Assembly: GCA_022843825.1 (NCBI GenBank)
Contig: JALHMX010000018.1
Location: 1-42,929 of the forward strand
Source of the DNA: Pseudobdellovibrionaceae bacterium
Lineage (GTDB): Bacteria > Bdellovibrionota > Bdellovibrionia > Bdellovibrionales > Bdellovibrionaceae
Direction of reading: 5' to 3'
DNA length: 42,929 bases
Position 1 is the stretch's first letter. Every line of letters starts with the position of its first letter. The notes under the pieces are model-generated. The model was not told where the DNA came from. It made no database searches and saw only the letters and a program-made list of their open reading frames with translations. Below are positions 6,885 through 41,069 of the stretch, in pieces. The position numbers were made by a program, and so were the translations under genes.

Positions 6885-7892
6885 ATGGTATTTCCTGATC
6901 TAAACGATGCTATTTTTTCTCATGATAAACATGTAAAAAACTATGCGGGTCCATTTAGTCGATTTTTGTCTGCACTATTGGATTATTTTATATTTTTTCC
7001 GGTGGTGTCTTTTGTGATGACGATTTTATTCAGAGATAGCGTAGCTGTCATATCTGATATTTTAGTTACAGGAGAGTTCACGTCTGTAATAGTTCACATA
7101 TTTATTTTTTATATTCTGGCTTTTACTTTATTGCAGACCTTGTTTATTTATTATTATGGAGCTACCCCGGGGCAGAGCTTCTTTAAAATATATATTCATT
7201 TTGAAGAAGTGCATTCTAATTTATTTATTCAAGTATGGTTAAGACAAATTGGTTTTGTTGTATCTTTGTTTTTATTGGGAATGCCTTATCTGTCTGTGCT
7301 TTATCATAGTCAGCGCAGAACGTTTTATGACCGTTTAAGTGAATGTGACGTGTTAACACGAGCCTCCTCTAATGAATTTTACTTACGTGAAATTGATAAA
7401 AGATATATCGCCGCTGGAGTTTCTACCGCTATATGTTTTTTTTCAACTGTCGCGGTGATTTCATTAATTCAATCCCATTTTATCACCGTTAATCAGTTTT
7501 ATGCGTCCTCTTCGCGAATACCGAGCATCAAGAAATGCTTTGACTTAGAAAATCAGACGACTGAGCAAAGAATGAAAACCGCTTTGGCGCTGAATGTCTT
7601 GGACATTATTCCTGACGAGTGTGTCATCAGCGAAGCTGATGCTTTATTTGGAAAAAACATAAGAAAAAATCAGCAGATAAATTCTTTGGCCTACTATGCT
7701 AAGTATTTATTAGCTGAAAAATCAGTGGTTTCTGAGTTAGCAGGGGACAAAGAGAAGTATCTGGAAAAAGCCTGCCAATCGGATGTCAAATCGGAGTTTT
7801 GTGAAAAGGGTGCGCGTGATGTCGCCTCCGAGATTAAGGTTGATACTTCAGAGTTTAAACTTAATTTTTTAAAGAAGTTGTTAGCAAAATGA
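6885..7892 (+). CDS. RDD-family membrane protein with C-terminal soluble domain
   Basis: About 335 residues. The N-terminal half is an RDD domain: GPFSRFLSALLDYFIFF starts the first membrane helix, GATPGQSFFKI follows the second, and RRTFYDRLSECDVLT closes the module. A further membrane helix near residues 175-195 leads to a soluble, helical C-terminal region with four Cys. RDD proteins are poorly understood; some affect ion transport or toxin handling. GTG 6879 in the same frame is an alternative start. The gene overlaps the rhomboid gene by 4 bases (ATGA), so both are probably made together, and it follows the exported pair after a 68-base gap containing an imperfect CCACTTA/TAAGTGG repeat. 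Confidence 0.75.
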   Translation: MVFPDLNDAIFSHDKHVKNYAGPFSRFLSALLDYFIFFPVVSFVMTILFRDSVAVISDILVTGEFTSVIVHIFIFYILAFTLLQTLFIYYYGATPGQSFFKIYIHFEEVHSNLFIQVWLRQIGFVVSLFLLGMPYLSVLYHSQRRTFYDRLSECDVLTRASSNEFYLREIDKRYIAAGVSTAICFFSTVAVISLIQSHFITVNQFYASSSRIPSIKKCFDLENQTTEQRMKTALALNVLDIIPDECVISEADALFGKNIRKNQQINSLAYYAKYLLAEKSVVSELAGDKEKYLEKACQSDVKSEFCEKGARDVASEIKVDTSEFKLNFLKKLLAK

Positions 7893-8830
7893 TTTTTCCA
7901 GGAAACATTTTTTTTAAAAAAGAGGATTTTACTGATGAGGCTTTAAAAAAAATCTTTTTTCAACCTGCCTTTTTTCTCGTTTTTTTAAATCTGATTATAT
8001 ATCTTGGGATTTCCTTTTCTTATACGACTACGTCAAACTTAAACTCTGATATTAAAATAATTAAGCGTCAATCAAACCTAAGCCTTATGCATCAAATGCA
8101 TATCCAGGCGCAAGATCCAATTATTAAGGACAGTATAGCCTATCGATCGCAACTTGATCCTTATTTATTTGTTAAAGACACGGCGTTTTGGAAAAAAGCT
8201 CAAACAATGAATTTCGTTGGCGATCAGATTCAAATTGATAACAATAAAAAAGTTCTTTCCAATTTAAACATTGCCTACGAATCGTCCGCACAGAAAGTCT
8301 ATGGCCTAGGGCATCAACAGAGCAGTGTTTTTAATTGGATGACTTATCAATTTACTCATCTTAGTTTTTTTCACTTTTTATCAAATGTAGTGTTCTTATT
8401 TTTAGTTGTTGGAATACTGCAAAAATTTGTGTCTGCCTATTGGATAGTTGGAGTATATATTTTCAGTGGTATAGCTGCAGGTGTTGGATATTTTCTGTTT
8501 AGCGATCAACTGAGCCTTCCACTAATAGGTGCCAGTGGATCAGTCAGTGGTTTAATGGTTTTTTTATGTGTTATAAAGGCTCAGCAAAATGTGACTTGGT
8601 CCTATTTTGTATCTCCATTGCCATCTGGTCATGGAAATCTGCTTATGCCAGCCTATCTGATTTTTCCAATTTATATATTAACTGACTTTACTAAAGTTTT
8701 GTTGGATGTAAATGGTGTTACAGGATCCGTGGCACATAGTGCTCATATCGGTGGAGCTTTATCTGGCTTTGCCTTAGGGCTGGGCTTTTTGGGTTATCGT
8801 CACTTTATGTCTAAATATTTGACAACATAA
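7889..8830 (+). CDS. Rhomboid-family intramembrane serine protease
   Basis: A 313-residue multi-pass protein with the rhomboid signature set. THLSFFHFLSN provides the conserved His162 and Asn166 that stabilise the oxyanion. GASGS provides the nucleophile Ser216, and AHIGG provides His286. GxxxG-like packing follows near the end. An extra N-terminal membrane helix (about 25-48) is followed by a roughly 100-residue soluble loop before the catalytic core, longer than in minimal GlpG-type enzymes and possibly a substrate-recognition domain. The family cleaves single-pass membrane proteins within or near the bilayer. Overlap with the RDD gene suggests a joint role; the substrate is unknown, but candidates are the membrane-anchored proteins encoded just upstream. 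Confidence 0.88.
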   Translation: MIFPGNIFFKKEDFTDEALKKIFFQPAFFLVFLNLIIYLGISFSYTTTSNLNSDIKIIKRQSNLSLMHQMHIQAQDPIIKDSIAYRSQLDPYLFVKDTAFWKKAQTMNFVGDQIQIDNNKKVLSNLNIAYESSAQKVYGLGHQQSSVFNWMTYQFTHLSFFHFLSNVVFLFLVVGILQKFVSAYWIVGVYIFSGIAAGVGYFLFSDQLSLPLIGASGSVSGLMVFLCVIKAQQNVTWSYFVSPLPSGHGNLLMPAYLIFPIYILTDFTKVLLDVNGVTGSVAHSAHIGGALSGFALGLGFLGYRHFMSKYLTT

Positions 8831-10211: not shown

Positions 10212-10857
10212 ACAATGCCGCGAAAAACTTTAACAAAAACTTCAGCATATCCTTATCAAATTACAAATCGGTCAAATAATAAAGATTTCTTTTATTTACA
10301 CATGAACGATCTATGGGAAATTTGTACGTCGTGCTTATACAGCCTTCAAGAGCAATACTCTATTAATGTTCATATGTTTGTATTAATGTCGAATCATTAC
10401 CATTTAATTATTGATACGCCCAAAGAAAATATCAGCGAGGCCATGAGATATTTTCATTGTGAAGTGGCACGAGCAGCCAATAAGAAAGCTTTTCGTACAA
10501 ATCACTTTTTTGGTGGTCGTTATAAATGGTGTTTGATTGATAATGAAAATTATTATTGGAACGCCATAAAATATAATTTTCGTAATCCTGTTGAGGCGGG
10601 CTTGAGTTGTAATGTTGAGAGTTACACGTACTCATCCTTAAATACTCAATCTAAAGTGCGATATAGGCTAACGGATTTTTTTAATGATCCAAATAAAAAC
10701 ATTCAACTTGATCTAGATTGGCTAAATGAGAAATTTGATTCGAGTAAAAGCGAAGCCATAAAGTGCGGGCTTCGCCGTCGGAATTTTCGATTACCTAAAA
10801 TATCAAAAAAACAAGTTACTTTGGAAACGCCGCGATACAAAAAGGGAACTGGTACCT
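10116..10857. mobile_element. RAYT element with perfect 18-bp inverted ends
   Basis: The left arm AGGTACCAGTTCCCTTTT (10116-10133) is exactly complementary to the right arm at 10840-10857, and similarity continues a few bases inward (CGTA against TGTA). Next to the left arm GTTCC (10124-10128) can also fold on GGAAC (10142-10146), as expected for hairpin-recognising HUH transposases. The transposase gene fills the interior and its stop codon lies at the edge of the right arm. The element has no flanking target duplication that I can see, consistent with IS200/REP-type chemistry. Confidence 0.75.
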
Positions 10858-10859
10858 AA
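10215..10859 (+). CDS. REP-associated tyrosine transposase (TnpA_REP / Y1 HUH family)
   Basis: A 214-residue protein with the RAYT hallmarks: HMFVLMSNHYHLIIDTP holds the metal-binding HUH motif (His-Tyr-His) and IKYNFRNPVEAGL holds the catalytic Tyr region ahead of the NPV-AGL signature. These single-strand endonucleases cleave at REP hairpins and are often domesticated single-copy genes. The length fits intact members (about 150-230 residues). A basic tail follows (KCGLRRRNFR). The start is ATG 10215. It runs toward putA on the other strand, and the two 3' ends overlap by 4 bases inside the right inverted arm. The frame is complete, so activity is plausible. Confidence 0.9.
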   Translation: MPRKTLTKTSAYPYQITNRSNNKDFFYLHMNDLWEICTSCLYSLQEQYSINVHMFVLMSNHYHLIIDTPKENISEAMRYFHCEVARAANKKAFRTNHFFGGRYKWCLIDNENYYWNAIKYNFRNPVEAGLSCNVESYTYSSLNTQSKVRYRLTDFFNDPNKNIQLDLDWLNEKFDSSKSEAIKCGLRRRNFRLPKISKKQVTLETPRYKKGTGT

Positions 10860-15576: not shown

Positions 15577-17478
15577 ATGATGGGTAAACAATTAAAGGTC
15601 ACTTTAATCGCTATTATAGTATTCGCAATTCCATATTTAGCCTTGGCTTCAGGTGCACCTTTAGTTAAAGCCAACGAATATATTGTTAAAATGAAGTCGC
15701 CCTCTCAGGCAGGAGAGAATCGCAGCCAGAAAGCGTCTAACGCCCGCAATGCTACCCAAAAGGGTTTTAGACTTATGGGTACCCTTGGAAAAACAGTACG
15801 AGTCGTACGACAAATTCCTGAAACGGGTATGTTACATATCAACGCCACTCAACAAGACCAATTAAATTATTTAAAGTCTCATCCTGATGTCGAATTCGTA
15901 GAGCCGAATTATATTCTTTCAAGTATTCCAATAGAAGTGGGATCAATGGGTGCGCCTCCAGAGCCAGGAGATTCATACTCTCAATCTTATTCAGCCGTGA
16001 AGGTCACCGAATCTTGGGGCATTGCTAAGCCCTATAACGATGCTACCGAAAAAACCATTGTAGCGGTAATCGATACTGGCGTAGATATCAATCATAGTGT
16101 TCTTAAAGATTCTGGTTCTATTTGGGTTAACGACGCTGAAAAATTTGGGCTTCCCGGCGTGGACGATGATGGAAATGGGTTTGTAGATGACATCCACGGG
16201 TGGAACTTTCATGGGAAAAATTCTAATGTTTTAGATGACAACGAACATGGAACGCATGTCGCAGGAATTGTTTTGGGGTTAGGGCAAGACATACTTGAAA
16301 ATCCTGTTCGCGAATCTCGAATTAGAATTATGCCGTTAAAGTTTTTAGATCACTCAGGGTCAGGATCGACCAGCGATGCCATAGCTGCAATTATGTATGC
16401 GGTTAATAATGGCGCGCGAGTGATCAATAATTCTTGGGGCGGTGGTAACTACTCGAAGGCACTTCATGATGCTTACGCTCACGCTTACAATAACAATGTT
16501 GTGATTGTTTCCGCAGCGGGAAACTCTCAAGATAATATCGACGTGATTCCGACATATCCGGCCGCTTTAGATACTCCTAGTAATATAACAGTAGCTTCCA
16601 CCACTGATGCTGATAACCTTTCAAGTTTTTCAAACTACAGCGGGCAAGGTTTGGTTCACATCGCGGCACCTGGATCGGGAATTTTAAGTACTGTTCCTGG
16701 AACATGCCCTATGTCACCTTTAGGTTGTTTCCGCTACATGTCAGGAACTTCCATGGCCACACCTTTTATTGCAGGGCTTGCCGCACTCGTTATTCGCGAG
16801 GTCCCAGAGGCCTCAGCTTATCAAGTTAAGGGAATGATCTTAGGGGCTATAGATTATAAAGCGAACTTAAATAACAAGGTACAGGTTTCCGGAAGAACCA
16901 ATGCACTCAAAGCGGTGCAATCAGCAATAACTAATGCAGGATCAATCACCTACTGGTTACCTGCTTATCAGCCGTCGTACAAAGTGGAGACTCGTTCGGT
17001 GGCTTCTGAACCTGACAGTGGTGGTGCAGGTTGCGGCATGGTTAAAGTCGTGCGTTCCACACTGGGAACCGGTGGCCACGTGAGTGATGGGTTTACTGCA
17101 GTTGAGGCTTTAAATCTTTTAAGTTTATTATTCTTAATGTCGATACCGGTGTTTTTAGCGTTTAAACTTCGTTCGGAACAACCTGCCTATGTTCGACGTC
17201 ATACGCGTTTCAATTTAGCGAAGGCTCTGCAAATTAAAATTAATGATGAAGTTGTTAACTTAGTTTCAAGCAGTGTTTCGGTGGGTGGGTTTTCATTTTC
17301 AAAAGATTTAAGCATTGATAAAGGGCAAAAAATTAAAGTCAAAATTCAGGATCAAGAAGTAGATGCTGAAATTGTTTGGAATCGCGAGAATAAAGTATAC
17401 GGTGTTAAATTCGCAGAAATTACTGATGCGATTAAACGAGAAGTTGAGTCTTGGACAGCCGGTTTAGCACCAAACTAA
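15577..17478 (+). CDS. Membrane-anchored subtilase (S8) fused to a cytoplasmic PilZ domain
   Basis: A 633-residue protein. Domains in order: a signal peptide (residues 1-25); an I9-type inhibitor propeptide (about 30-112, EYIVKM then VEFVEPNY); and an S8 peptidase with a full triad, Asp166 (VIDTGVD), His227 (EHGTHVAG) and Ser392 (GTSMATP), plus oxyanion Asn315. A linker precedes one membrane helix at about 511-530 (LLSLLFLMSIPVFLAF), and residues 538-630 resemble PilZ. The PilZ part has RRHTR at 540-544 and SVSVGG at 566-571, where the usual Asp/Asn of D/NxSxxG is Ser. Protease outside, PilZ inside is the predicted topology. PilZ domains bind c-di-GMP, so external proteolysis may be tied to that signal. 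Either of two adjacent ATGs could start it. Confidence 0.85.
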   Translation: MMGKQLKVTLIAIIVFAIPYLALASGAPLVKANEYIVKMKSPSQAGENRSQKASNARNATQKGFRLMGTLGKTVRVVRQIPETGMLHINATQQDQLNYLKSHPDVEFVEPNYILSSIPIEVGSMGAPPEPGDSYSQSYSAVKVTESWGIAKPYNDATEKTIVAVIDTGVDINHSVLKDSGSIWVNDAEKFGLPGVDDDGNGFVDDIHGWNFHGKNSNVLDDNEHGTHVAGIVLGLGQDILENPVRESRIRIMPLKFLDHSGSGSTSDAIAAIMYAVNNGARVINNSWGGGNYSKALHDAYAHAYNNNVVIVSAAGNSQDNIDVIPTYPAALDTPSNITVASTTDADNLSSFSNYSGQGLVHIAAPGSGILSTVPGTCPMSPLGCFRYMSGTSMATPFIAGLAALVIREVPEASAYQVKGMILGAIDYKANLNNKVQVSGRTNALKAVQSAITNAGSITYWLPAYQPSYKVETRSVASEPDSGGAGCGMVKVVRSTLGTGGHVSDGFTAVEALNLLSLLFLMSIPVFLAFKLRSEQPAYVRRHTRFNLAKALQIKINDEVVNLVSSSVSVGGFSFSKDLSIDKGQKIKVKIQDQEVDAEIVWNRENKVYGVKFAEITDAIKREVESWTAGLAPN

Positions 17479-40360: not shown

Positions 40361-40388
40361 TTAATAAATGAAAAAAGAGGATAATAAC

Positions 40389-41069
40389 ATGAAAACAACA
40401 AACCAAAAACTAGCTCTAAAATCCATAGCCCTTTTTGTGGGCCTTGTCGGATTGACATTGATTTTGTTCTCGTGCGGAAAAGCAGGGGATGATAACAATG
40501 CAAATCAACATAACGTCTATCCCGGTTGTGTAAACTGCGGAAACATTGGCCCCAATGGCCAAGTTATTTTCCAGTCAAATTCAACGGATTTGAATAACCA
40601 ACTGAGCCTTTCACTGAGCTTTACCGGCGCGATGAATCAGTACCCACAACAATACCCGCAACAGTACCCTGGACAATATCCGACGCAATACCCAGGTCAG
40701 TATCCAACGCAGTATCCAGGATATGGATCACCGGTGACTTCATACTCAGGCCCGGTCTATGCGCAAGGACAAATGCAAATCACTCAAGGGTTAACATCTT
40801 ATTACGGATGTGTAATCCCGGCAGGAACATACACAGTTCAAGCGGTGCAAGCAGGTCAATGGCAACAGGCGATGGTATCAAACTTAGTATTGCAAGCTAA
40901 CGGACCGATCAGTTTAATGATTCACATTAATCAAGCACAGGTTTCTGCAGGAACAAATCAACCGGGACAAACTTGGAGTGAAGTGCAACCAGTGGGTCGA
41001 TTGTTTGGTAATATTTCTATTCAAGCTTTGAACGGAATGAATTGTCAGTACTCTAACTTGATCCGATAA
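40389..41069 (+). CDS. Lipoprotein with QYP-repeat linker
   Basis: A 226-residue lipoprotein: the signal peptide ends LILFSC, Cys near residue 29. After a short region with a Cys pair (YPGCVNCGNIG), about seven tandem QYP(x) units form a Pro/Gln/Tyr-rich stalk (residues about 84-111). A C-terminal domain of about 110 residues follows (QMQITQGLTSYYGC, GTYTVQAVQAGQW) that could be a small beta-sandwich. AGAGGA precedes ATG 40389 by about 8 bases; the ATG at 40368 is less well placed. It follows a related lipoprotein, and the two may be paralogues sharing organisation but not close sequence. Function unknown; probably exposed on the outer membrane. Confidence 0.75.
   Translation: MKTTNQKLALKSIALFVGLVGLTLILFSCGKAGDDNNANQHNVYPGCVNCGNIGPNGQVIFQSNSTDLNNQLSLSLSFTGAMNQYPQQYPQQYPGQYPTQYPGQYPTQYPGYGSPVTSYSGPVYAQGQMQITQGLTSYYGCVIPAGTYTVQAVQAGQWQQAMVSNLVLQANGPISLMIHINQAQVSAGTNQPGQTWSEVQPVGRLFGNISIQALNGMNCQYSNLIR
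40638..40720 (+). repeat. Tandem 12-bp coding repeat (QYPx units)
   Basis: About seven imperfect 12-base units of the form CAATAYCC-N4, giving QYPQ, QYPG and QYPT. Third-codon positions vary between units, so it is maintained at protein level and not a recent expansion. It could vary in copy number by slippage. Confidence 0.75.

Follow-up and report, generated by a model that had tools for sequence, protein, structure and literature searches.

How a predatory bacterium, which must time its envelope proteolysis, could steer cutting outside its inner membrane from within is the question raised by a gene that joins a subtilase and a PilZ domain in one chain, on either side of a membrane helix. 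The gene lies in a stretch of 42,929 nucleotides, here called the window, from the 2.4 Mb genome G000 of the class Bdellovibrionia, whose closest named relatives are uncultured Bdellovibrio and Pseudobdellovibrionaceae. In predatory bacteria, c-di-GMP controls the switch from predation to free growth and back, and 15 PilZ proteins that still await study are attributed to B. bacteriovorus (PMC3271064). No output joining c-di-GMP to a protease in predatory bacteria was found in the open-licence literature that was searched, and later work may exist. The domain pair itself has been known since 2008: a genome-wide survey of the serine proteases found in prokaryotes (BMC Genomics 2008 9:549, PMC2605481) lists Subt-PilZ NP_969350.1 of Bdellovibrio bacteriovorus, and places it among domains with an undefined or indeterminate role. 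Topology, residue conservation, the GCG tail described below and a mechanism are not part of that survey's account of Subt-PilZ. NP_969350.1 has the same domain pair and comes from the same bacterial group as the window protein; judged by these two features, it is very probably its ortholog. Relative to that account, what is new here is a putative single-chain variant of c-di-GMP-controlled envelope proteolysis and a tail with the possible role of a sorting signal not known before. On balance, we lean towards a protease of the envelope, anchored in the inner membrane, that is controlled by c-di-GMP within a single chain, possibly by way of release. The protein has a conserved architecture, a positive-inside sidedness, which is a prediction, and a PilZ fold given by both profile and model.

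The open reading frame spans exactly 15577-17478 on the forward strand and encodes, as read from the sequence, 633 amino acids; the strand opposite is crowded with stops. Its parts are collected in Table 1. Pfam detects only an S8 domain, a PilZ domain and, weakly, an I9 propeptide. The Peptidase_S8 match (residues 159-425) has an E-value of 5.4e-52 and 177 bits against a cut-off of 21.8, and D166, H224, N316 and S392 are invariant across the 102 aligned full-length orthologs on which the conservation counts are based. The triad D166/H224/S392 is therefore intact, as the earlier note on this DNA had claimed in placing a full S8 triad behind a signal peptide; a hydrophobic N-terminal core is present in 100 of the 102. 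The I9 match is weak (E 0.07, residues 93-114), and E109 and P110 of the propeptide are invariant in an alignment of 17 sequences.

Table 1. Features of the subtilase-PilZ gene, related tails and a candidate processing enzyme
Feature	Position	Strand	Size or basis
Whole gene: signal peptide, propeptide, S8 subtilase, GCG motif, membrane helix, PilZ	15577..17478	+	633 aa
Signal peptide, residues 1-24, likely cleaved after ALA	15577..15648	+	Read from sequence
I9-like propeptide, residues 33-113, terminating VEFVEPNY	15673..15915	+	Weak Pfam I9 match and alignment
Peptidase S8 catalytic domain, residues 159-425	16051..16851	+	Pfam and invariant residues
S8 catalytic residues D166, H224, N316, S392	16072, 16246, 16522, 16750	+	
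G485-C486-G487 motif with lone invariant Cys, periplasmic linker (predicted)	17029..17037	+	Ortholog alignment
Membrane helix, residues 509-532, K/R after it	17101..17172	+	Family hydropathy
Invariant P524 within membrane helix	17146-17148	+	
RxxxR motif R540-R544 (RRHTR, 540-544), about 8 residues past helix	17194..17208	+	Both Arg in 102/102
PilZ domain, residues 540-627	17194..17457	+	Pfam, AlphaFold2, Foldseek
SxSxxG, S566-G571, counterpart of D/NxSxxG	17272..17289	+	Alignment column counts
Tail (GCG-x-V, spacer, Pro-containing helix, K/R) at C-terminal ends of Bdellovibrionia exported proteins	L218, L219, L221-L225, L265-L284		
Rhomboid-family intramembrane protease, candidate tail processor	7889..8830	+	PF01694, E 1.3e-17

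The single membrane helix that had been proposed before is recovered as one hydrophobic helix, with a best 17-residue mean hydropathy of 2.44 over the family; exactly one hydrophobic segment is found beyond residue 45 in 93 of the 102 orthologs. On average, the 15 residues that precede the helix hold 1.05 lysines plus arginines and the 15 that follow it 5.71, and these basic residues are commoner after than before in all orthologs but one (101/102). Together with the signal peptide, this positive-inside bias predicts a protease that faces the periplasm and a PilZ domain that faces the cytoplasm, on opposite sides of the membrane rather than on the same side, the latter being the arrangement that would have spoken against the original proposal. 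The full-length AlphaFold model is poor (pLDDT 53) and was excluded from the topology argument. The description of the protease as secreted holds insofar as it is placed outside the inner membrane; periplasm-facing and inner-membrane-anchored unless processed is the better wording.

This single-chain combination is near-universal in the class Bdellovibrionia and is no local oddity. A match at E<=1e-60 is present in 126 of 144 genomes of the class, and in 101 of the 106 good ones, with nearly all of these matches extending through PilZ to residue ~630. Reduced genomes of 1.2-2.0 Mb that belong to one family lack the protein. Beyond the class, even the best relatives do not reach into PilZ, and among the matches listed none passes residue 541. 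In the tree, the outgroup proteins L122/L123 branch as the sister group of the class proteins with a support of 0.986, and the members of the class that lack PilZ fall at about five places inside it, which suggests that PilZ was gained once, by a protein that already had the GCG tail, and lost repeatedly. In these branches, about five in number, PilZ is lost or decayed and the protease and helix are retained; therefore, the protease has some function without PilZ. The loss is not explained by a loss of c-di-GMP synthesis, since 3 GGDEF domains are encoded in each of the PilZ-less genomes G063, G089 and G131, and some such genomes still carry other PilZ proteins as well. In one ortholog (L095, from G131) PilZ has decayed beyond recognition, with no PF07238 match, and the protease and GCG tail are kept. 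As a class-wide protein, the PilZ-protease would be a direct candidate for an output leading from messenger to protease.

The PilZ-like domain with RRHTR that the earlier note had described is matched by Pfam (PF07238, residues 540-627) with an E-value of 7.1e-9 and 36.4 bits, over a cut-off of 22.5. AlphaFold2 models residues 534-633 as a six-stranded barrel with a C-terminal helix (pLDDT 82.7). A search of PDB sequences with the PilZ domain gave no significant match, and the fold of the model was therefore searched with Foldseek; its top PDB matches are PilZ domains, many of them bound to c-di-GMP, the nearest being Alg44 with c-di-GMP and MotI, with BcsA and YcgR also among them. The structure prediction that the earlier note had suggested as a check thus yields the fold that it proposed.

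Within the domain, R540, R544, G570, G571 and G609 are invariant in all 102 full-length orthologs, and S568 is kept in 99. Identity of the PilZ domain to the window copy, itself one of the more divergent of the set, averages only 32%, so that the arginines have been kept selectively. R540 and S566 are 26 residues apart in 101 of 102. In several relatives no other PilZ of the genome scores as high as that of the ortholog (70-72 bits in G018 and G091). Retention of the arginines is not required in PilZ domains that lack c-di-GMP binding. The window motif reads S566-V-S568-V-G570-G571, which matches xSxxG and lacks the Asp or Asn of the first position, and the doubt that this had cast on binding is partly answered by the comparison with homologues: this position is Thr in 53, Ser in 40, Cys in 5, Asp in 3 and Asn in 1, that is, Thr or Ser in 93 of 102 and Asp or Asn in 4. 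Going by the alignment, Ser566 is a family trait and not a peculiarity of the window, and there is no support for the idea that PilZ has decayed because of it. Rather, the retention of the arginine pair, the motif serine and the glycine pair throughout the class argues for a retained ligand site. Against binding counts the serine itself, given that alanine mutants of Alg44 R17, R21 and D44 are reported to lose c-di-GMP binding (PMC12564702). G000 encodes 3 GGDEF and 10 PilZ domains; c-di-GMP is therefore probably made in this organism. Judging from these conserved positions, this PilZ probably binds c-di-GMP.

It could also be imagined that PilZ, without being a c-di-GMP switch, binds other proteins or serves for placement, and so holds an otherwise ordinary protease of the envelope at a particular site of the cell. 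Some PilZ domains function without ligand, and both the Ser/Thr at the Asp/Asn position and the repeated loss of PilZ from a protease that is kept would fit such a role. A scaffold, however, would not need two arginines that stay invariant at such low domain identity, and we regard this explanation as unlikely.

If c-di-GMP control is indeed at work, the messenger would bind the cytoplasmic PilZ at the RxxxR junction, which lies between helix and barrel as it does in BcsA, and would reorder that junction. The change would then pass through the helix to the periplasmic protease, and the result might be an altered protease activity, an altered access to substrate, or the detachment of the protease from the membrane by way of its GCG tail. 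That PilZ controls the protease has, in our estimate, an even chance of being right, and release as the control point is a tentative proposal that we hold to be unlikely. The spacing between P524 and R540 varies from 14 to 25 residues; a strictly rigid lever is hard to reconcile with this, and control by release would be compatible with it.

Known systems share parts of this design. The earlier note had compared it to LapD/LapG, where the cytoplasmic c-di-GMP state likewise governs periplasmic proteolysis (PMC3032553, PMC3032545). LapD/LapG, however, consists of two proteins, with a degenerate EAL-type receptor and a non-S8 protease in LapG, whereas the window protein is one chain made of PilZ and S8. 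That system pairs a receptor of degenerate GGDEF-EAL type with a protease that is a protein of its own in the periplasm; the window protein, with S8, PilZ and a weak I9 as its sole Pfam matches, is not a member of it. Alg44, a membrane protein and among the top Foldseek matches, and BcsA are alike in tying a c-di-GMP-binding PilZ to a membrane helix in a single chain. The order in BcsA is described as helix, RxxxR linker, barrel (PMC12564702), and RxxxR is likewise in the helix-barrel linker of the window protein. Both differ from it in that their output is polysaccharide synthesis or export instead of proteolysis, and in the Asp that is given for the first position of their motif, where the window has Ser (PMC12564702).

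An invariant tail, of which the earlier note made no mention, suggests another control point, through release or sorting. C486 is the sole invariant cysteine (102/102), its flanking glycines are nearly invariant, and P524 in the helix is invariant (102/102). In most of the PilZ-less relatives (L090-L093), and likewise in the outgroup proteins L122 and L286, the Cys-Gly motif and the helix are retained and form the end of the protein. A profile built from S8-type tails only (A2) matched other proteins at 5.7e-10, 1.6e-5 and 7.8e-5, and a wider profile (A3) gave more matches; because the tail was first found with the S8-only profile, its occurrence in other proteins is not circular. In 27 of the 28 other tailed proteins that were checked, the tail lies 1-16 residues from the stop codon. 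The carriers are nearly all unrelated to S8: they include M10 matrixins, gingipain-like C25 peptidases of ~2500 amino acids, LPMO_10/SCE4755-like proteins and a family of ~530 amino acids without a Pfam match. The sole exception comes from the end of a contig: in L270 (minus strand, 3-497), a protein with calcium repeats, the tail continues into a second signal-peptide-like and outer-membrane-protein-like stretch, apparently a second exported protein. The tail is nearly restricted to the class, with 4 genomes of the phylum outside it at E<=0.001; in G000 it occurs once only, in the subtilase-PilZ protein, and a PilZ domain behind it is found only in the subtilase family. From its sequence pattern, the tail is a candidate for an undescribed C-terminal sorting tag. 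If so, it would be a new signal that marks surface hydrolases such as the matrixins, the gingipain-like C25 peptidases and the LPMO-like proteins, and it would make the processing enzyme findable.

The likeness to known tags is a matter of design. MYXO-CTERM has an invariant Cys in a GC motif, a spacer, a helix and a basic end, and is found on secreted hydrolases (PMC11980579); among the tailed proteins, the matrixins are similar to the 'myxosortase-dependent metalloprotease' family (NF041905), though they score below its cut-off. The GCG tail differs from it by an invariant proline in the helix. Furthermore, MYXO-CTERM sits at the extreme C-terminus, as the tail does in the 27 other proteins, whereas in the subtilase family PilZ follows the tail. 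MYXO-CTERM proper can be ruled out for G000, where no CPBP protease (PF02517) was found, and no NCBIfam or NCBI CTERM model matched the tail or the tailed proteins checked. CPBP proteases are present in 6 of the 20 genomes searched. GlyGly-CTERM with rhombosortase, as for VesB of Vibrio, is alike in that a serine protease carries a C-terminal helix whose proline is needed for cleavage by the rhomboid; its enzyme needs a Leu and a helix-kinking Pro within the substrate helix (PMC11389362). The GCG tail differs from this tag as well, by a GCG signature instead of SGGS and by the lack of a model match.

A rhomboid gene is encoded 7 kb from the subtilase-PilZ gene, and its product (7889-8830) is a candidate for the enzyme that might process the tail. 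It has a long N-terminal insertion and is nearer to the rhombosortase model than to GlpG. Its identification as a rhombosortase is only a lead, since it scores 46 bits on that model, below the cut-off of 84, its relatives mostly score still lower, and second rhomboids match the model too. In a profile of 24 genomes, a relative of the window rhomboid is present in 16 of 17 tail-bearing genomes against 0 of 6 reduced tail-less ones, a comparison that genome reduction confounds. G089, which bears the tail, lacks such a relative, and G107, which does not bear it, has one.

These findings bear on a regulated form of sorting, in which the GCG motif, spacer, Pro-containing helix and basic end would together be the tag, a rhomboid, perhaps that of the window, would cut near it, and PilZ would license or block the cut according to c-di-GMP; the cut would free the protease or re-anchor it for export. 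The invariant Cys and Pro, the terminal position of the tail on mostly non-S8 proteins, its near confinement to the class, the design shared with MYXO-CTERM and GlyGly-CTERM, and the co-occurrence of the rhomboid all speak in its favour. It is nevertheless improbable in our view, as the processing is itself a prediction, the MYXO-CTERM enzyme is not available in G000, the rhomboid falls short of the rhombosortase cut-off and has the two mismatched and confounded distributions, and known tags of such design end the protein. In its most extended version, which we hold to be quite improbable, the Bdellovibrionia would have a tag of their own on several hydrolases, cut by a rhomboid-type enzyme, and the PilZ behind it would make c-di-GMP the gate for sorting of the protease, setting the time of its release or of its dispatch to the surface.

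The gene neighbourhoods bear on the process that is served. At 34 of 76 loci, none of them from the window's own family, the gene is directly downstream of a SurA/PpiC-type chaperone, and mreC and PBP2 genes are found within 5 kb in 27 loci each; these surroundings hint at envelope work. A housekeeping protease for envelope quality or wall growth, outside predation signalling, would suit them. We give it little credence: neither the window nor its family has the gene next to the chaperone in this way, and such a role would concern the process served and not the control by c-di-GMP, which is the reading that we continue to prefer. An operon logic in the window was rejected, as the neighbours Hsp33 and MgtE are not conserved past close relatives. 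Neighbouring S8 and PilZ genes acting in trans were likewise set aside: in G000, 3 of 5 other S8 genes lie <=2.5 kb from a PilZ gene (chance about 2e-4, noticed post hoc), and among 40 PilZ loci from three further genomes only two had an S8 gene near by, one of them clear and the other weak.

Some minor observations can be added. In G000, a small PilZ gene and a PilZ-less S8 protease gene lie 25 bp apart on the same strand (L234:263-2264, minus) and resemble a split fusion; such a split pair is not general elsewhere. At L226, L233, L300, L304 and L336, PilZ genes stand beside a lipoprotein whose start is of the VDILFVIDNSRSM type (VWA-like); this lipoprotein recurs next to PilZ in three genomes. 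Within the window, the reading frame at 10215-10859 resembles, by eye, REP-associated Y1 transposases, and that at 40368-41069 is lipoprotein-like with QYPQQYPGQYPTQYPG repeats.
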